A stretch of 64,000 nt of DNA from Bryobacterales bacterium F-183 (GTDB lineage Bacteria > Acidobacteriota > Terriglobia > Bryobacterales > Bryobacteraceae), in the NCBI GenBank assembly GCA_016865505.2, contig AP025252.1:3410001-3474000 (forward strand). Reading direction: 5' to 3'. Each line of letters opens with the position of its first letter. Positions within the stretch are counted from its first letter, which is position 1. Under the pieces are notes generated by a model. That model worked only from the letters and a program-made list of their open reading frames with translations, made no database searches and was not told the origin of the DNA. Below are positions 47,030 to 61,902 of the stretch, piece after piece. The translations under genes and the position numbers were made by a program.

Positions 47030-48058
47030 ATGATTGCTGGGCTTTTGCTGGTGCTGCTGGCGGCGCCTGTCGGCGCGGCGAGTGAAGATCCGCCCGTAAA
47101 GGCGGAGAGTGCTGATGCCGGCCTCTTTCGAGTACAGCGCGCGGGCAAATGGGGCTTTGTGGATCGCGAGGGTCGCGTGGTGATCTCGCCCCGGTTCGCC
47201 TATGCTCGGGACTTCTTTGGCGGGAAGGCCGCCGTTCAGGATCTTGGCGGATTGTGGGGTTATATCGGGCGCGACGATGCTTTTGCGATTACGCCTAGGT
47301 TTACCGATGCGGGTGACTTTGGCGACGGTCGCGCAGTGGTGAATGGGAAGACGACGGTGATCCGCGAGGATGGGTCTGTTGTTGGCAGGTACGAAGAGGT
47401 GCTGCCGTATTCAGACGGGCTGGCCGCGTATCGCGAGGGGAATCGCTGGGGTTTTCTGGATCGTGAAGGGAAGGCCGCGATACGTGCGCGGTTCGACGCG
47501 GTGCTGCCGTTTTCGTCCGGCTTTGCGCGGGTGTGGAGCGAGAGCCAGAAGCGCTGGGGTGTGATCGGGCGGCTTGGGCACCTGACGGCGGATTATGTGT
47601 TCTCGGCGATTGGTCCTTTCGATGGAGGACTGGCGGGGGCGAAGGTCGCGGAGTCCGGGCTGTGCGGGTTTACCGATGGTGGATCGAAGCTGAAGATTTC
47701 GGCGGTGGATTGGTGCTTTGAGGATGAGGTGCCTGAGGGATACGGCGTGTTCCGCGATGGATTTGCCGCTGTCGTGCAGGATCATCATCTGGCGGTGTTC
47801 ATCGACAAATCAGGGCGGAAGCAGATCCCTTGGTTGTCGCTCTGGACGCGAGGGTTTTCTGAAGGTCTGGCAGCGATTCAGTTGGACGACGGGTATTGGA
47901 CGTACATGAATACGTCGGGTAAGCCAGCGATGGAGTTGCGGTTTTCTGAGGCGTTTCCGTTTCGTGATGGCTTGGCGCTGGTGAAGGCTCATGACGGTTG
48001 GCACTATCTGCGCAAGGATGGTACGTACGCCGTCAGAAATGTGTTTGAGGCAAAGTGA
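47030..48058 (+). CDS. WG-repeat protein, exported
   Basis: A 342-aa protein with a signal peptide (MIAGLLLVLLAAPVGAASE) and repeated WGF/WGY blocks (KWGFVDREGRVVISPRF, LWGYIGRDDAFAITPRF, RWGFLDREGKAAIRARF, RWGVIGR), each of about 45-50 residues. WG-repeat proteins form beta-propeller-like surfaces for binding. The ATG directly follows the TAG of the dehydrogenase gene, so the two are one operon. Confidence 0.85.
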   Translation: MIAGLLLVLLAAPVGAASEDPPVKAESADAGLFRVQRAGKWGFVDREGRVVISPRFAYARDFFGGKAAVQDLGGLWGYIGRDDAFAITPRFTDAGDFGDGRAVVNGKTTVIREDGSVVGRYEEVLPYSDGLAAYREGNRWGFLDREGKAAIRARFDAVLPFSSGFARVWSESQKRWGVIGRLGHLTADYVFSAIGPFDGGLAGAKVAESGLCGFTDGGSKLKISAVDWCFEDEVPEGYGVFRDGFAAVVQDHHLAVFIDKSGRKQIPWLSLWTRGFSEGLAAIQLDDGYWTYMNTSGKPAMELRFSEAFPFRDGLALVKAHDGWHYLRKDGTYAVRNVFEAK

Positions 48059-49865: not shown

Positions 49866-49906
49866 AACGTGGAAACCTTCCTACTATATCCTTGAGGGCG
49901 AGGCGT

Positions 49907-50734
49907 ATGCTGATCTCAATCTTAGTTCTATCCACAACTGCAGAGATTCTGGTACACGGGCACCGGGGGGCGCGGGCTACGATGCCCGAAAATACGATTC
50001 CGGCGTTTGAGTACGCGATCCAGGCCGGTGCGGATGTCCTGGAGTTGGACTTGGCGGTGACCAAGGATGACGTGCTGGTGGTGTCGCACGATAGCTTTTT
50101 GCATGCGCCGACGTGCAAGGGGCCTGTAGAGAAGGCTGCGATTCGGGAACTGACTCTGGCGGAGGTACGGAAGTGGGATTGTGGGGTAGTGCCGAATCCG
50201 CAGTTTCCGGGGCAGAAGAGAATTCCGGGTACGCGTATGCCTACGCTGGACGAGGTGTTCGGGTTGGCGAAGAAGGGGAAGTTCGAGTTCAACGTCGAGA
50301 CGAAGATCAGTCCGGCTCGCCCCGAGTTGAGCGCGACGCCGGAACGGTTCGCTGAGCTTCTGGCGCAAGCGATTGTGAAGCATAAGTTGGTGTCCCGGGT
50401 GATCGTGCAGTCTTTCGACTATCGGACGTTGGTGGCGATGCGGAAGATCAATCCGGAGATCCGGCTGTCGGCGCTGTTCACCAATTCGACGGAATCGTAC
50501 GCGGCGATCTCGAGGAAGGCAGGGAATGCGGAGTTCGTGTCTCCGATCTACACCGGAGTTACCGCGGCGCAGGTCAAAGCGGCGCAGGCTGAGGGCTTGA
50601 ATGTCGTGCCGTGGACGCCTAACACCACTGCCGAGTGGGATCGGTTGATCGAAATGGGCGTAGACGCGATTATCACTGACGATCCGGCGGCGTTGATCGT
50701 GCACTTGCAGAAGCGGGGCTTGAGAAAGCGCTAG
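49907..50734 (+). CDS. Glycerophosphodiester phosphodiesterase
   Basis: A 275-aa protein from ATG 49907 (GAGGCG upstream), with a short possible signal (MLISILVLSTTA). The catalytic motif is HGHRGARATMPENT (His19, Glu28), followed by ADVLELDLAVTKDDVLVVSHD, giving metal Glu/Asp and the second His, then NVETKIS. It splits glycerophosphodiesters to glycerol-3-phosphate and alcohol. Divergent from the oxidoreductase gene. Confidence 0.88.
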   Translation: MLISILVLSTTAEILVHGHRGARATMPENTIPAFEYAIQAGADVLELDLAVTKDDVLVVSHDSFLHAPTCKGPVEKAAIRELTLAEVRKWDCGVVPNPQFPGQKRIPGTRMPTLDEVFGLAKKGKFEFNVETKISPARPELSATPERFAELLAQAIVKHKLVSRVIVQSFDYRTLVAMRKINPEIRLSALFTNSTESYAAISRKAGNAEFVSPIYTGVTAAQVKAAQAEGLNVVPWTPNTTAEWDRLIEMGVDAIITDDPAALIVHLQKRGLRKR

Positions 50735-50754
50735 CGCGTGCTAACGTAGGGTTT

Positions 50755-51516
50755 TTGGACCACGCATTCGTACTCCGTACGCTCATCCTGAAAGATTTCA
50801 AGATCCGCTATCGCAACATGTCGCTCGGCATGCTGTGGAGCGTCCTGAATCCTCTGATCATGATGAGTGTCCTGACGTTCGTGTTCACGGTACTGAATCC
50901 GCCGAACGTTAAGAACATTTCGGACTATCCTTTATTTTTTCTATGTGGTCTGATCCCGTACAGCTTCCTTTCGGTGACCTGGGGTACGGGTACGAACTGT
51001 ATTGTCGATAACGCACAGCTACTCAAGCGCACAAAGATGCCGCGCGAGGCGGTTCCGATCGCGAGTGTCCTGGCGGCGGGGCTGCACCTACTGATTCAGC
51101 TTGGCTTGCTGCTGGGGATCACGTTGGTGAACGGTCACGGAATCAATGTGTACTGGCTTTGGCTCCCGTTGCTTTGGGCAGTCGCCGTGGTGTTTGTGGT
51201 CGGGCTAGTGCTGTTGTGTTCGGCGCTCGATGTGTTTATCCGGGACATGCGGTATCTGGTCGAGTCCTCGGTATCGCTATTGTTTTGGTTTATGCCAATA
51301 TTCTATTCGGCGAATATCATTAAGCCGAGCCACAAGGTGATTTGGGAACTGAATCCTTTGACGGTTCTGATCCTGGCACAGCGGGCGGTGCTGCTTGAGG
51401 GGCAGGCACCTGAGATGCGGCTGTTCTGGAAGATGTGCATTGTTTCCGGGATTACGCTTGCGCTTGGGTGGATCGTGTTCCGAAAGCTCGAGCAGAAGTT
51501 TTACGATTACCTGTAA
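50755..51516 (+). CDS. ABC-2-type polysaccharide export permease
   Basis: A 253-aa Wzm-like membrane protein with about six hydrophobic spans (SLGMLWSVLNPLIMMSVLTF, SVLAAGLHLLIQLGLLLGIT, etc.). LKDFKIRYRNMSLGMLWSV is the typical N-terminal amphipathic segment. Starts at TTG 50755. With the ATPase gene 3 nt later it would export O-antigen, teichoic-type or other lipid-linked glycan. Confidence 0.88.
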   Translation: MDHAFVLRTLILKDFKIRYRNMSLGMLWSVLNPLIMMSVLTFVFTVLNPPNVKNISDYPLFFLCGLIPYSFLSVTWGTGTNCIVDNAQLLKRTKMPREAVPIASVLAAGLHLLIQLGLLLGITLVNGHGINVYWLWLPLLWAVAVVFVVGLVLLCSALDVFIRDMRYLVESSVSLLFWFMPIFYSANIIKPSHKVIWELNPLTVLILAQRAVLLEGQAPEMRLFWKMCIVSGITLALGWIVFRKLEQKFYDYL

Positions 51517-51519
51517 ACC

Positions 51520-52248
51520 ATGGGTTTAATTCGCTTTCAGAACGTGTCGAAGACCTTTGCGCGTACGGCGCGACGGCAGGTTCTGGGTAGCCATTTGCGA
51601 AATATCGTTTCGCGGACGAAGTCGGCAGAGGAGCCGTTCTTTGCGGTTCGCGATATGACTTTTTCTGTTGAGCCCGGGCGGAGCCTGGGGTTGGTGGGGT
51701 CGAATGGCGCCGGCAAGAGTACGACTTTGGCGCTGGCCGCTGGGATCTGCCAGCCGAGTGCGGGTACGATTGAGGTGACGGGCCGGGCGGTCGGGTTGCT
51801 GGAACTGGGTTCGGGGTTCCATCCGGAACTTACCGGGGTCGAAAACCTCTATTTGAACGCCGCACTGCTGGGGATGACGGAGAAGGAAGCCAAGGCGGCC
51901 GAGCCTCGGATCGCGGAGTTCGCGGATATCGGAGATTACATTTACGAACCTCTCCGAACTTATTCATCGGGAATGATGTTACGGCTCGCGTTTGCGGTGG
52001 CCGTGCACTCGCATCCGGATGTGCTGATCGTAGACGAGGTGATCGGCGTGGGCGACTCGGCCTTCCAACAGAAATGCAACGAACGGCTGCGGCAGTTGCG
52101 TCAGAACCGGGTGACTATTCTGTGTACTTCGCATTCCGGGGACGTACTGCGGGATATGTGCGATGAACTGCTGTGGATCGACCATGGGCAGGTCAAGCGC
52201 CGGGGTACCCCTGACGAAGTGCTTGCCGCCTACCTACATCAGCACTAA
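51520..52248 (+). CDS. ABC transporter ATPase (Wzt-like)
   Basis: A 242-aa nucleotide-binding protein: Walker A GSNGAGKST (60-68), Q-loop-type GSGFHPELTGVENL, signature YSSGMMLRLAFA, Walker B VLIVDEVIGVGD, switch His in CTSHSGD. It ends soon after the NBD, so it lacks the C-terminal glycan-binding domain of longer Wzt proteins. Partner of the permease at 50755. Confidence 0.9.
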   Translation: MGLIRFQNVSKTFARTARRQVLGSHLRNIVSRTKSAEEPFFAVRDMTFSVEPGRSLGLVGSNGAGKSTTLALAAGICQPSAGTIEVTGRAVGLLELGSGFHPELTGVENLYLNAALLGMTEKEAKAAEPRIAEFADIGDYIYEPLRTYSSGMMLRLAFAVAVHSHPDVLIVDEVIGVGDSAFQQKCNERLRQLRQNRVTILCTSHSGDVLRDMCDELLWIDHGQVKRRGTPDEVLAAYLHQH

Positions 52249-52260
52249 CCTGGAAGTAGA

Positions 52261-54684
52261 GTGCCAAAACCTGAAGTGATGAGTCCGGCTGGCCATTGGC
52301 CGCAACTGCGGGCCGCCATTGAGGCGGGTGCGGATGCGGTCTATTTTGGCTTGCAGCACTTCAGCGCGCGGGCTAAGGTCGGGTTTACATTGGCTGAGCT
52401 TCCGGAGGTAATGCGGACGCTGCATCGGCGTGGAGTGAAGGGTTATGTTACGTTTAACACCCTTGTCTTCGAGCATGAGTTGAAAGAGGCTGCTCGAACT
52501 CTCACAGCCATATCGGATTCCGGTGCCGATGCCATCATTGTGCAGGACATCGGGGTGGCCAAGGTCGCGCATGAGATCGTGCCGGATTTGCCGCTGCATG
52601 GGTCCACCCAGATGACGATTACGAGCGCGGAGGGTGTCAGTTTTGCGCAGGATTTGGGGATCACTCGAGTGGTTCTGGCTCGTGAACTATCGGTTGAACA
52701 AATACAGGCTATTCGTAACAAAAAAAATATCGAACTAGAAGTATTTGTGCATGGCGCGCTGTGCGTGTCTTACTCGGGGCAGTGTTTCTCCTCGGAAGCG
52801 TGGGGTGGGCGGAGCGCCAATCGCGGCCAATGTGCCCAGGCTTGCCGGCTTTCCTATGATTTGATTGTCGACGGGCGGGAGCATGCGCTCGGCGATGCGC
52901 GATACCTTTTGTCTCCTGGGGATTTGTTTGCGATTGAGCAGGTACCCGCTTTGGCGGCTGCCGGGGTTCATTCCCTCAAGATCGAGGGTCGGTACAAGGA
53001 TGAGGCTTACGTCGCGCTGGCGACCGCGGCTTATCGGAAGGCTGTGGATTCGGTCCCTGTTTCAGAAGTTGAGAAGCGGAATCTGCAGCAGGCCTACTCG
53101 CGGGGGATGGGTCCGTATTTCCTCTCTGGGACGGATCATCAGCAGGTGGTTCAAGGACGTGCGCCACGACATCGCGGGCTTTACATGGGGAAAGTTCTGC
53201 AAGTAGATTATAAATCGATACTTGCGGAAAAGTCCGAGCTGAAGCCGGGCGATGGCGTGGTGTTCGATGCTGCGGACTGGCGGAGTCCGGACGAGCGGGA
53301 AGAAGGTGCTCGTGTCTATGGAGTGGAGTCCGTCGGGAAAGGGCAAGTTCGCCTGACCTTTGCAAACGGGGCTCTGGATCCGGGACGGATCCGGCCGGGC
53401 GATTGGATCTGGCGTACGGATGATCCGCAATTGGTGAATGCCGTGAAGCCGCTGATTGCGGAGAACCGCCGAAAGCAGCCGGTGCATGTCGTTGTCACCG
53501 CTGTGGCTGGACAGCCACTAAAGAGTGTCTGGAACGGACAGCTAGTGGAGAGTGACGCTGCATTAGAAGTCTCGAAGAATCAAGGTTTAACGGCAGAACA
53601 ATTCAAGCAACAGTTTGAGCGGCTCGGCGGGACTCCTTATGAGCTTGGTCACCTGGAAGCGACGATCGAAGGATCTCCTTTTGTGCCGGTCTCGTTGATG
53701 AATCAGATTCGGCGGCGGGCGGTTGAGATCCTGCAAGAGAATCAGGCGGCTCTTCCCGAGCGGCGACGTGCGATGTTTGTGGCGCCGACGCCACCCGCTG
53801 CGATAACTGAACCGGAGAGTGCGCAGTTGCATGTCCTGGTGCGGACGACGGCCCAGTTGGAGGCTGCTTTGGCGCTTCGGCCGACCAGCATTACTCTCGA
53901 TTATCTTGAACTCTATGGTTTAAAGCCTTCGGTGGAACGCATTCAGGAGGCAGGAGTTGTAGCTCGAGTGGCGAGCCCTCGAGTGCTGAAGCCGGCGGAG
54001 CAGAATGTCGTCCACTTCCTTCGCAAGTTGGGCTGTTCAATTGTCGTGCGGTCTGCTGGGTTGTTGCAGGATCTCGCTGGGGCTGAAGTTCCTCTGATAG
54101 GTGACTTCAGCTTGAATGTAACGAATTCGATTTCTGCGTCTATCCTTTTCGAAAAAGGGATTTTGCGAATCACGCCATCGTACGATCTGAACGCGGATCA
54201 GGTGCGGAAGTTGTCTATTGAGACGCATTCATCGCGGATTGAGGCGGTGATGTATCAGCACTTGCCGGTTTTTCATACCGAGCACTGTGTGTTCTGCCGG
54301 TTCCTTTCGACGGGGACCGATTACCGGAACTGCGGGCATCCTTGCGAGAAGCACCAGGTGGCGGTTCGGGATCAGAAGGGGCGAGCGCATCCTGTGATGG
54401 CCGATGTGGGATGTCGGAATACGGTGTTCGGTGCTCAGGCGCAGGAGGCCAGTCGGCATTTCGATAGCTGGCATGGCGCGGGCATCCGACACTTCCGGTT
54501 GGAGTTTGTGCATGAGACGCCGGACGAGGTCCGGAGCATTACGCGCGACTTTCAACAGTTGCTCAGCGGGAAGATCACTTCCGCGGAGTTGGCACGCCGC
54601 TGGCAGAAGGCGTCACCGCAGGGAATCACGGAGGGCAGCCTGTTCGTACCGGCGAATTACGATTTGTTGCCGATCTTACAATGA
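52261..54684 (+). CDS. U32-family protein (RlhA-like, 23S rRNA hydroxylation type)
   Basis: An 807-aa protein starting at GTG 52261. The U32 domain shows [36 protein letters not shown] and [15 protein letters not shown], with further Cys (RGQCAQAC) for an iron-sulfur site. A DUF3656-like middle (about 300-430) and a second U32-like half follow, ending with Cys motifs ([15 protein letters not shown]). In E. coli RlhA makes 5-hydroxycytidine at C2501 of 23S rRNA. The stop overlaps the rlmN start by ATGA, supporting an rRNA role. Protease activity is not expected. Confidence 0.83.
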
Positions 54685-55739
54685 CCAATATCGTCGGCAT
54701 GGATCTTCCCGAAATGCAGGCGGCGCTTGGCGCCGGCCTTCCGGCATACCGGTCCCGGCAGTTGTATGAGGCTGTGTACAAGCGGCGGGTGGATTCGCTC
54801 GAGAACATATCGAATTTTCCGAAGGATCTGCGCGCGCAGTTGGCCGAGGGGTACCGGCTGGGATTGCCTGAAGTTCAGACCCGGTTTGACTCGGTGGACG
54901 GTACTCAGCGGTGTCTGTTGAAGCTCGATGACGGCAAGACGGTGGAGACGGTTTTGATGCCGGAGGGCGAACGGTATACGTTCTGCATCTCGTCCCAGGT
55001 GGGGTGTCCGGTGAACTGCCAGTTCTGCCTGACGGCGCTGATGGGGCTGGAACGGAACCTGACGGCTGGGGAAATTGTCGGTCAGATCCTGAAGGTGGCG
55101 GCGCTGAACGGGCTCGAAACGTCGATCGACCGGTTGAACATCGTGATGATGGGGCAGGGGGAGCCGCTGCTGAATCTGCCGAACGTGATTCGGGCGACGC
55201 GGATTCTGCTGGACGAGGACGGCGTCGGGTTCTCGCCGAAGCGGGTTACGGTTTCGACCTCCGGGATCTTACCGAAGATGCTGGAGTTGGCGAAGGAGCC
55301 GGTGCGTCCGAAACTGGCGATCTCACTGAATGCTTCGACCGAGGAGCAGCGGCAGGAGATCATGCCGATTACGCGGAAGTATCACCTGAAGGATCTGATG
55401 GAGGTCTGCCGGAGCTACCCGTTGCGGTCCTGGGAAAAGTTGACGTTTGAGTACGTGCTGCTGAAGGGTGTGAACGACACCGACGCGGATGCGCGGCGGG
55501 TGGTGAAGCTGGTGAGCAACATCAACTGCAAGGTGAATCTGATAGCCCTCAACCCGGGGCCGGGGATCGATTTTGAGACCCCGACGCCGGAACGGGTGGA
55601 GAGTTTTCAGACGATTGTGCAGCGCGCCGTGCCTTGCTTTGTGCGAAAGCCGCGCGGGTTAGATGTCTATGCGGCTTGCGGTCAACTCAAGCGCATGGAG
55701 TTGACGCAGATTAGCGGCGGCTCCGGAACATCCGCATAA
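54681..55739 (+). CDS. rlmN: 23S rRNA/tRNA adenine C2-methyltransferase RlmN
   Basis: A 352-aa radical-SAM enzyme that methylates C2 of A2503 in 23S rRNA and A37 in some tRNAs. The cluster Cys are Cys109, Cys113 and Cys116 (GCPVNCQFC), and the catalytic C-terminal Cys is Cys333 (YAACGQL). MGQGEPLLN and SLNAST motifs bind SAM. All key residues are intact. It is translated together with the U32 gene. It overlaps the converging lipoprotein gene by 29 bp. Confidence 0.95.
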
Positions 55740-58297: not shown

Positions 58298-60406
58298 TTA
58301 TTTCGACTTTTGTGCGAGATCTTCCACCTTTAGGCCGGAATTCAGCTGATAGGAAACAACCTGAATCGACGCGAATTTCTTGCCGCCTTGTTCGATTACG
58401 ATGTCGAAGGGCAGCTTGACTCCTGCGCTGGTAGCCCGCCAGTCGGAATAGATTTCTGTAGTTTGTGATGCGCCGCCGGCCATTGCGGTTGACAGGTATT
58501 CCACTTTTTTTGGAAGTCCGTCAGAGGAAAGAGTGACGGTTGTGGGGCCGCCGGGTCCGGTAATGCGGAACGAATCCTCCGAGAGCGCCTCGAACTGCTT
58601 GCCTTCGGCGGGCAGGAAGAGCGTGACGGGAAGGCGGGCGAGTTCGCCACGGGCCTGCTGCAGGACTGGGGCCTGCATGGGCATGTTGCCCTGCGGACCC
58701 GTCATCCAGCCACCCTTGAGGTCTGTGTAGACTTCCAGCTTGCCGAAGGGGAGGGTCTGTTCCTGGCGGAGATGGTTGGGCAGGATGACCTTGGTTTTCT
58801 GATTGACCTTGAGCGCGGTGCCGCCGGTTTGCAGTTCCATGTTGCGCTCCATCTGGAGGTCGCGGATCGCTGCGAGAGCCGCGGAGCCTCCGAGAGCCTG
58901 GGCTGCTTTGGCGGCTAACGCTTTACCCTTTTCGGCGGCTTGCGGGATGGCGGCGGCAGGTGCCGGAGTGGCCGCTTTGGGTTCCGGAATCGTAAGGTCG
59001 AGCTTGGTGACGGGGATCTTGAGGTCCGTGAGAGGCTTGCCGAATTCGGCGGGGTTGCCGACGGCGACGATGGTGAAGTCACTGGACTTCCAGTGTTCTT
59101 TGGCTACGCGGAGGACGTCGGCTTTGGTGACCGCTGCGATGGCCTTCTGGTACTGGAACATGAAATCCTTGGGGTAGCCGAAGTATTCGTAGAGGACCAC
59201 GCGGTTGAGGGTCTTGCTGGGACGGTCGAAGTTGAAGACGAAGCTGTTGAGTACGCCGTCCTTCGCGGCTTGCAGTTCGACATCAGTGACTGGGGCGGTG
59301 CGGAGCTTTTCGATTTCCTCACGAGTGACGCGGATGGTGTCCACAGTGGAGTTCGACTTGGTGCTTCCGGCGATCTGGAAGAGGCCCGGGCTGTTGAAGC
59401 CAGCGCCCCAGCCTCCGCCGATGTTGTAGGCGTAGCCGAGCTTGGTTCGCACGGTGGCCATCAAGCGGCTGCTGAAGCCGGAGGCGAGGATGTTGGCGGC
59501 AACTTCGAGAGCCGGATAGTCCTTGTCGTTGAGCTTGCCTCCGATGTGGCCGAGGTAGAAGAAGGTTTGCGTGGTGTCGTCCTTTTCAGCGAGGAAGACG
59601 CCGGGTTGGGGCTTACCGGTCCAGTCCGGGAAGGCGGGTACGGGGGCCTGGTTGACGGTCCAGTCTGCAAAGAGCTTTTCGAGCTTGGCTCGCATCTCTG
59701 TGGCGTTGAAATCGCCGTAGAGGGTGAGGCGGGCGTTCTTGGGAAAGAAGTAGCGCTTGTAGAAGGCTTGCAGGTCTTCACGCTTGATGCGGTCGACGTG
59801 CTCGTAGTCGATGGTCCAGCCGTAGGGGCTGGTGCGGCCGTAGACAATGCTGGAGAACTCGCGCTGTGCGATGTCGCCGGGATCGTCGTTGCGGCGGCTG
59901 ATGGCGCTCTTTTCCTGCTGGACGGCGAGGTCGAACTTGTCCTGGCGGAATTCGGGATTGGTGAGTACGTCCTTGAAGATCGCCATGACCTGGTCGGCGT
60001 TTTCTTTGAGGCAGCTGAAGGATACAGAGCCGCTCGATTCGCCGATTTGGCTTTCTACGGAAGCAGCGATGTTTTCGAGCTCGATGTCGATGTCGTCGCC
60101 GGTTTTGGACTTGGTACCGCCGCTGCGGAGGACCTGGCCGGTGAAGTCCGCGAGGCCGCGCTTGTCTGGCGGGTCGAAGAGGTTGCCGGTACGGACGAGG
60201 GCGGAGCCGCTGACGACGGGCAGTTCATGATTCTCGAGCAGGTAGACCTTCATGCCGTTGGGCAGGGTGAAGGTGACGGGCTCGGGAATTTGCACCTGCT
60301 TGAGCGGCGGGTACTTCAGTTGCTTGTAGCTGGGGATGACCGGGGCGGCCGGCTGAGCGGCGGCGAGGATCGCAGAGGCGATGAAGAGTGACAGATGACG
60401 GCGCAT
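58298..60406 (-). CDS. M16-family peptidase-like protein, inactive type, with C-terminal LolA-like domain
   Basis: A 702-aa exported protein (ATG 60406; leader MRRHLSLFIASAILAAAQ). The two M16 halves are clear (VTFTLPNGMKVYLLENHELP; YAYNIGGGWGAGFN), but the HxxEH motif is replaced by Asp87-x-x-Gly90-Gln91, so zinc binding is lost. A Pro/Ala linker then leads to a 200-residue beta-rich region (MERNMELQTGGTALKVNQKT). It is the probable non-catalytic partner of the active M16 protein, whose gene lies 2 nt upstream. Confidence 0.86.
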   Translation of the reverse strand: MRRHLSLFIASAILAAAQPAAPVIPSYKQLKYPPLKQVQIPEPVTFTLPNGMKVYLLENHELPVVSGSALVRTGNLFDPPDKRGLADFTGQVLRSGGTKSKTGDDIDIELENIAASVESQIGESSGSVSFSCLKENADQVMAIFKDVLTNPEFRQDKFDLAVQQEKSAISRRNDDPGDIAQREFSSIVYGRTSPYGWTIDYEHVDRIKREDLQAFYKRYFFPKNARLTLYGDFNATEMRAKLEKLFADWTVNQAPVPAFPDWTGKPQPGVFLAEKDDTTQTFFYLGHIGGKLNDKDYPALEVAANILASGFSSRLMATVRTKLGYAYNIGGGWGAGFNSPGLFQIAGSTKSNSTVDTIRVTREEIEKLRTAPVTDVELQAAKDGVLNSFVFNFDRPSKTLNRVVLYEYFGYPKDFMFQYQKAIAAVTKADVLRVAKEHWKSSDFTIVAVGNPAEFGKPLTDLKIPVTKLDLTIPEPKAATPAPAAAIPQAAEKGKALAAKAAQALGGSAALAAIRDLQMERNMELQTGGTALKVNQKTKVILPNHLRQEQTLPFGKLEVYTDLKGGWMTGPQGNMPMQAPVLQQARGELARLPVTLFLPAEGKQFEALSEDSFRITGPGGPTTVTLSSDGLPKKVEYLSTAMAGGASQTTEIYSDWRATSAGVKLPFDIVIEQGGKKFASIQVVSYQLNSGLKVEDLAQKSK

Positions 60407-60408
60407 GG

Positions 60409-61902
60409 TTATTTGGCGCCTCCCTTGGGCTGGTAGGTCCAAACTACGGTGCGGTTCTTGGCCACGAGGTACTCTTTGGCGACGCGCATGACGTCGTCGG
60501 CCGTAATCTTGTTGATTTCGTCGATTTCGCGGAACATGTTGCGCCAGTCGCCGGTGGTGGCGTGGTAGCTGGCGAGTTCCCCGGCGAGGCCGGAGTTGCT
60601 GTCGAGCTTGCGGATGACGCCGGCGCGAACTTTGGTTTTGGTGCGTGCAAGAGCGGCTTCGTCGACTTTGGTGGTCTTGAGTTTTTCAACGATGTCGTAG
60701 CAGGTTTTTTCGTTCTCTTCGATGGTGCGGCCCATGTTGGGGACTAGGAAGAAGATGAACAGGTTGTCGTACTTGTCGCCGGGGAAGCTGGGCTGCGCGA
60801 TGGCTGCGAGCGACATCTTCTTGTCGCGCACCATTTCGGTGTACAGCATGCTGGTGCGGCCGCCGGCGAGGATGTCGGCGATGACGTCGAGGATCTTGGC
60901 GTCCTTGTGGTTGCGATCCGGGCGCTTGTAGCCGATTAGCATCAGCGGCTGGTCTTTGTGTTCAAAGCCGCTGCGCTTTTCGCCGAGTTGGGCCGGTTCG
61001 ACGGTACGGACCGGTGGAGGTAGAGGCTTGGCGGCGAGGCGTCCGAAGTATTTTTCGGCGAGGAGTTTGGCCTGCTTGGGGTCGACGTCGCCGGCGATGG
61101 CGATGGTCATGTTGGCGGGGACGTAGTGGGTCTTGAAGAAGTCCCAGGCCTCGGGCATACGGTAGTTTTCGATGTCGCTGGCCCAGCCTCCGGGCATGCC
61201 TTTATAGGGGTGTGCGGCGAAGGCCATGGAGAGCAGAGTCTCCATCAGCAGGCCCTGGGAGTTCGATTCCACACGCATGCGGCGTTCTTCTCGTACGACG
61301 TCGCGCTCTTTGTAGAACTCGCGGAAGACGGGGCGGACGAAGCGTTCGGATTCGAGCAGAAACCAGAGTTCGAGGCGGTTGGCGGGGAAGCTCAGGTAGT
61401 AGCTGGTGCTGTCCATGCCGGTGCCGGCGTTGAGTCCGACGCCGCCCTGGGATTCGATCAGGCGGTCGTACTCGTTGGGTTCGACGAAGGAGTCGGCCTT
61501 TTCGATGGCGCCCTTGAGGTCCGCTTCAAGGGAGGCGAGCTTTTTGGGGTCCGCTTTGCTGCCTTTGTACTTTTCCTGCTGGTAGAGGTCGTAGACTTTT
61601 TCGATGTTGGTGAGCGCCGCCTTTTCGAGCGGGTAGTTTTTTGTGCCGATGGTTTCGGTGCCCTTGAAGGCCATGTGCTCCATCATGTGGGCGATGCCGC
61701 TTTGACCCTTAGGGTCGTCGACAGAGCCGGCGTTGACGAAGGTCTGGAACGATACGACAGGGGCGCCGTGGCGTTCCACGATGATGAAGTGTAAGCCGTT
61801 GGCGAGGGTGAACTCGGTGACTTTTTTTTCGAAGTCCGCCAGGGACTGCGCGAGCAAAGCGGTGGCCGTAACGGCGGCTACCGCAACAAAGCGGCGACTC
61901 AT
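60409..61902 (-). CDS. M16-family zinc metallopeptidase, active type
   Basis: A 497-aa exported peptidase (leader MSRRFVAVAAVTATALLAQS). The inverted zinc motif HxxEH is intact at His72-Met-Met-Glu75-His76, with the distal Glu expected in NEYDRLIES or just after. The C-terminal half has the partner-domain fold. It would pair with the inactive protein encoded next in the operon to form a heterodimer. Confidence 0.9.
   Translation of the reverse strand: MSRRFVAVAAVTATALLAQSLADFEKKVTEFTLANGLHFIIVERHGAPVVSFQTFVNAGSVDDPKGQSGIAHMMEHMAFKGTETIGTKNYPLEKAALTNIEKVYDLYQQEKYKGSKADPKKLASLEADLKGAIEKADSFVEPNEYDRLIESQGGVGLNAGTGMDSTSYYLSFPANRLELWFLLESERFVRPVFREFYKERDVVREERRMRVESNSQGLLMETLLSMAFAAHPYKGMPGGWASDIENYRMPEAWDFFKTHYVPANMTIAIAGDVDPKQAKLLAEKYFGRLAAKPLPPPVRTVEPAQLGEKRSGFEHKDQPLMLIGYKRPDRNHKDAKILDVIADILAGGRTSMLYTEMVRDKKMSLAAIAQPSFPGDKYDNLFIFFLVPNMGRTIEENEKTCYDIVEKLKTTKVDEAALARTKTKVRAGVIRKLDSNSGLAGELASYHATTGDWRNMFREIDEINKITADDVMRVAKEYLVAKNRTVVWTYQPKGGAK

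Follow-up and report, generated by a model that had tools for sequence, protein, structure and literature searches.

In Escherichia coli, two nucleotides of 23S rRNA are modified by RlhA, which makes ho5C2501, and by RlmN, which makes m2A2503 as well as m2A37 in tRNA, and active RlmN is described as aiding the assembly of the 50S subunit (PMC11194073). RlhA (YdcP, the ho5C2501 synthase) is a U32 protein in which E161, C169 and C176 are reported as required (PMC6599085). Elsewhere in the U32 family, activity is described on U34 of tRNA, by TrhP (YegQ, the tRNA ho5U34 hydroxylase), and in ubiquinone synthesis, by UbiU and UbiV in anaerobic hydroxylation (PMC6599085, PMC6747719). A CX6CX15CX3C motif is given as common to most U32 families, its cysteines being proposed as ligands of an Fe-S cluster, and the domain groups RlhA1 and RlhA2 are given as mostly halves of the same proteins, split (PMC6747719). 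In the literature covered, at the level of titles and abstract openings and with the main RlhA papers falling outside that coverage, no rlhA-rlmN operon was found, which is a weak negative.

The gene pair and its upstream run

The window (the whole stretch of DNA analysed here, 64,000 nucleotides) contains a gene for an RlhA-type U32 protein at 52261-54684 on the forward strand (GTG start, 807 aa) and rlmN at 54681-55739 on the same strand (ATG start, 352 aa), both taken from the list of open reading frames. A reading of the DNA made from the sequence alone (the sequence-only reading) had described RlhA-like and RlmN genes overlapping by 4 nt, and this description holds: both frames are present and share the forward-strand ATGA at 54681-54684, which serves as stop and start. 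The overlap is real but ordinary, since a rough gene call over the whole window leaves room for a 4-nt overlap in 3 of 27 same-strand neighbour pairs; spacing of 20 nt or less occurs in 11 of the 27. One other such pair lies at 48055 and joins a WG-repeat-like ORF with a GNAT-like ORF (names read from their translations). By itself, an overlap of two genes says little about whether their products work together.

Upstream, a run of forward-strand genes starts with a glycerophosphodiester phosphodiesterase (GDPD, from Pfam) at 49892-50734, continues with an ABC-2 type permease at 50755-51516, identified by profile matches, and reaches the U32 gene through an ABC transporter ATPase at 51520-52248, whose best NCBIfam matches, Wzt and TagH, stay below cut-off. 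The gaps along the run are 20, 3 and 12 nt, the last separating the ATPase gene from the U32 gene, and the GDPD and ABC-transporter genes (49892-52248) possibly form the front of a transcript with the U32 gene. It is from spacing, as the sole basis, that the U32 gene and rlmN may be regarded as a putative operon.

Identity of the U32 protein

In Pfam, the window U32 protein matches Peptidase_U32 in two stretches and DUF3656, laid out as an N-terminal U32 domain, DUF3656 at residues 383-494 and, closer to the C terminus, another U32 match that is weaker. A control scan of the E. coli proteins returned U32 (one stretch) with DUF3656 for RlhA, and U32 with U32_C for TrhP. Among the E. coli U32 proteins the window protein scores best against RlhA (256 bits, with 34% identity over 536 aligned positions), followed by TrhP (165), UbiU (135) and UbiV (41). 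In the alignment, the counterparts of E. coli RlhA E161, C169 and C176 are E160, C168 and C175, and those of C192 and C196 are C191 and C195, so that the CX6CX15CX3C motif is present as C168-C175-C191-C195; as TrhP also carries this motif, it does not discriminate between RlhA and TrhP. The active-site stretch GRSANRGxCxQACRLxY is common to the window protein and E. coli RlhA.

Other identities were tried and rejected. TrhP shares the U32 domain and the motif, but the E. coli protein carries PF16325, gives no match to DUF3656 and stands apart in the tree described below; the window protein has no PF16325 match and reaches 217.9 of the 534 bits set for TrhP. UbiU and UbiV also share the U32 domain (PMC6747719), but measure only 331 and 292 aa in E. 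coli, and the window protein stays well short of the curated cut-offs for both, at 178.5 bits against 440 and 89 bits against 275. That it passes no NCBIfam equivalog says little, because E. coli RlhA itself passes none of the NCBIfam models. A PDB sequence search found nothing when run with the protein alone; run with a profile, it gave one match, at chance level (E 0.62).

For the tree, 43 rows were picked by hand, so as to spread over the groups, from a set of 133 in which some genomes are present twice, and the first 330 residues of each were used. The window protein and E. coli RlhA fall together in a group of 32 rows that leaves out TrhP, UbiU and UbiV (support 96/93). Inside this group, the window protein belongs to a subclade of 20 rows (99/99), alongside long proteins (about 800 aa) from Chloroflexota, Planctomycetota, Verrucomicrobiota, Cyanobacteriota and Bacillota. 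E. coli RlhA sits in a clade of 7 rows (100/100), where its companions are about 610 aa long and come from the window's own phylum; the deeper branching order is unsure because the outgroup branches are long. The nearest named U32 loci include some from Bryobacterales, and also Chloroflexota at similar identity.

The domains, the conserved glutamate and cysteines, the E. coli scores and the tree thus bear out the sequence-only reading in calling the protein RlhA-like. It resembles E. coli RlhA in U32 plus DUF3656, in the essential residues and in the four-cysteine motif, and departs from it in length (807 against 653 aa), in having two U32 stretches instead of one, and in lying in a sister subclade. 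On sequence grounds, the right label is RlhA-type, of a sister subfamily, with a putative target.

This position, together with a second U32 match that has no counterpart in E. coli RlhA, makes a different target possible. The substrate of the hydroxylation might be not C2501 but some other position in rRNA, a tRNA or a small molecule, with RlmN a neighbour by coincidence, as would suit a family whose other members act on tRNA U34 (TrhP) and in ubiquinone synthesis (UbiU and UbiV), according to PMC6599085 and PMC6747719. Against this stand the likeness of the active-site stretch to the one in E. coli RlhA and the presence of DUF3656, and the two U32 matches are in keeping with a two-domain RlhA, given that RlhA1 and RlhA2 are described as coming mostly from the same split proteins (PMC6747719). 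The genome also lacks a TrhO domain and a convincing CmoB. Specifically, no TrhO N-terminal domain was found in it (the same search, as a control, found one in 6 of 14 genomes), and the CmoB family gave two weak, partial matches, one over the cut-off of 23.8 bits (27.9 bits) and one under it (22.9 bits), in frames of 246 and 235 aa; a role of the window protein at the tRNA wobble base is therefore unlikely, although not impossible. Overall, we consider a target other than C2501 rather unlikely. The target of the long (about 800 aa) U32 subfamily is in any case worth establishing.

The genome encodes a second U32 protein, a divergent open frame of 369 aa without the CX6CX15CX3C motif (C1:6112700-6116392, frame 1114-2220). 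Open frames of similar length were matched by it in three other genomes (G025, G027 and G005; loci L018, L019 and L022).

RlmN and the target nucleotides

The window RlmN contains the Pfam domains Radical_SAM and RlmN_N and passes the TIGR00048 RlmN model (363.4 bits against a cut-off of 290), while not reaching the cut-offs set for three RlmN models of narrower scope (PRK11194, PRK14461 and PRK14470). Its CX3CX2C motif is C109, C113 and C116, and C102 and C333 align with C118 and C355 of E. coli RlmN, so that all of E. coli C118, C125, C129, C132 and C355 are conserved. Solved RlmN structures are homologous to it, the best being 6fz6, and within its own genome it matches only itself at E 0.001. 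Cfr was rejected as an alternative, the protein scoring 206 of 530, 201.1 of 468 and 200.4 of 550 bits against the Cfr cut-offs. The second gene had been called RlmN from its sequence, and the TIGR00048 score and the catalytic cysteines confirm the call. The protein is like the described m2A2503/tRNA m2A37 methyltransferase and has nothing unusual in it; only its genomic neighbour differs.

A search of the genome with the pattern of positions 2496-2512, allowing at most one mismatch, returned a single site, which lies inside the 23S rRNA match and has its mismatch downstream of 2503. The pattern and the position numbering are what we take to be those of the E. coli 23S sequence. The site has C in position 2501 and A in position 2503. 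Of the earlier proposal that these two nucleotides are the targets of the pair, the enzyme families and the presence of both bases stand; the coordinated modification that it attached to them is not supported.

Linkage of the two genes across genomes

The sequence-only reading had suggested a survey of gene adjacency, and among the genomes checked the overlapping pair turned out to be confined to the window's genus. The sole other member of the genus drawn (G001, contig C667) keeps the ATGA overlap, with 80% identity over the ~157 C-terminal residues of the U32 protein, the rest of whose gene is off the contig, and 89% identity in rlmN. In the same family, a U32 match was found in 44 of 81 genomes and an RlmN match in 77. 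When the contigs were compared by eye, both matches lay on one contig in 2 of the 44 U32-bearing genomes, which are the two of the window's genus (G000 and G001), and in none of the other 42, of which 41 have RlmN on another contig and one (G350) has no match for it; most of these assemblies are fragmented drafts, in which a contig break between the two genes might have hidden a pair. The U32 gene itself is patchy, being present in those 44 family genomes and in 0 of 14 of the sister family f3, a distribution that suggests repeated loss or transfer.

In a sample of 297 genomes of the phylum, 37 had a U32 match, in 29 of them with E below 1e-40. One of these 29 is the window genome with its overlap, and in three (G162, G125 and G220) rlmN precedes the U32 gene on the same strand at a distance of about 1.2 kb; in 11 the genes are on different contigs or more than 1 Mb apart (among the matches listed), and in 14 no RlmN was found in the fetched surroundings of the U32 gene, some of these contigs being short. 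The three cases with rlmN upstream, all from one distant genus of the phylum, represent 3 of the 7 U32-bearing genomes of family f30; we do not read them as operons of the two genes, since acpS and, on the opposite strand, a laccase-domain ORF intervene. The order in this distant genus (loci L027, L028 and L029) is rlmN, the opposite-strand laccase-domain ORF, acpS and the rlhA-type U32 gene; L027 and L028 also have an M16 peptidase gene on the far side of rlmN.

Elsewhere, among 80 named U32 loci (the best 80 of at least 589) drawn from several phyla, 0 had an RlmN in the fetched flanks; these loci are rich in Paenibacillus and so do not amount to 80 independent lineages, and the flanks reach at least 3 kb on both sides in 66 of the 80, and at least 300 nt downstream in 79. 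Clustering the neighbours of 104 U32 loci gave no family that recurs in more than 10, and RlmN is absent among the 25 clusters listed. In E. coli, rlhA lies at 1.51 Mb and rlmN at 2.64 Mb, about 1.1 Mb apart. A conserved rlhA-rlmN operon was accordingly rejected on the 0 of 42 other family genomes and the 0 of 80 named loci (again the best 80 of at least 589).

Independent enzymes or a coupled pair

What is new at this locus is a genus-level arrangement of genes from known families, a long RlhA-type protein and a normal RlmN. The overlap does not show that the enzymes work together, as it is seen in the window's genus only, among the genomes checked. In our judgement the two are quite probably independent housekeeping enzymes, one RlhA-type and the other RlmN, that a local rearrangement has made neighbours. 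The U32 protein would hold an Fe-S cluster through C168, C175, C191 and C195 and would place a hydroxyl group on C5 of a cytidine, for which C2501 of 23S rRNA is the likeliest candidate; it would depend on the metabolite prephenate, as does the E. coli enzyme. RlmN, a radical-SAM enzyme, would methylate C2 of A2503 and of A37 in some tRNAs, and each enzyme would act alone. The rearrangement would have taken place in the ancestor of the genus, and the ATGA overlap would bring at most shared transcription and translational coupling, the pair perhaps being co-transcribed with the upstream GDPD and ABC-transporter genes. The nearness of rlmN to an rlhA-type gene in the distant genus of family f30 counts against this reading.

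The overlap might instead have been selected, with joint expression setting the stoichiometry of ho5C2501 and m2A2503, or the order in which they are made, in a small module at the peptidyl-transferase centre. Its presence in both genomes of the genus is compatible with selection, the putative targets are two nucleotides apart, and no clear Shine-Dalgarno sequence is seen by eye before the ATG of rlmN, which fits translational coupling; in a Cfr-rRNA structure, moreover, C2501 is described as contacted by Cfr, an A2503 methylase (PMC13001441). The E. coli study of a strain with ten deletions is neutral on this point, as the effect of RlhA is reported there as left out of the analysis (PMC11194073). 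The distribution of the genes speaks against selection: no shared contig in any of the 42 remaining family genomes with the U32 gene (RlmN being present in 41), no pair at the 80 named loci (best 80 of at least 589), no U32 match in 37 of the 81 family genomes as against RlmN in 77, and wide separation in E. coli. We hold a selected overlap to be very unlikely, and the coordinated modification suggested from the sequence goes unsupported, with linkage in 2 of 44 family genomes, at 0 of the 80 named loci, and with about 1.1 Mb between the E. coli genes. Coordination is possible in the window's genus, where the overlap kept in two genomes is the sole measured point in its favour; that a coupled module sets C2501 hydroxylation and A2503 methylation together there, one favouring or blocking the other, is extremely improbable. 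Linkage through shared Fe-S or redox control, one transcript tuning two presumed Fe-S enzymes with no shared target, could appeal to the apparent inactivation of Enterococcus faecalis RlmN by superoxide (PMC10336011) and to the Fe-S binding proposed for the conserved cysteines of the RlhA family (PMC6747719), but the upstream genes encode a GDPD and an ABC exporter instead of redox or Fe-S functions, the linkage is genus-limited in the family survey, and this explanation is hardly credible.

Some observations concern where rlmN lies in relatives. An M16 peptidase gene adjoins rlmN in 3 of the 9 same-family rlmN stretches fetched, and this position is perhaps the older neighbourhood of the gene. 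The two genes are divergent in three same-family genomes (loci L116, L117 and L118). In the window, an M16-like gene lies at 58298-60442, 2.6 kb downstream of rlmN, with 22-24% identity to the M16 genes that adjoin rlmN in the family.
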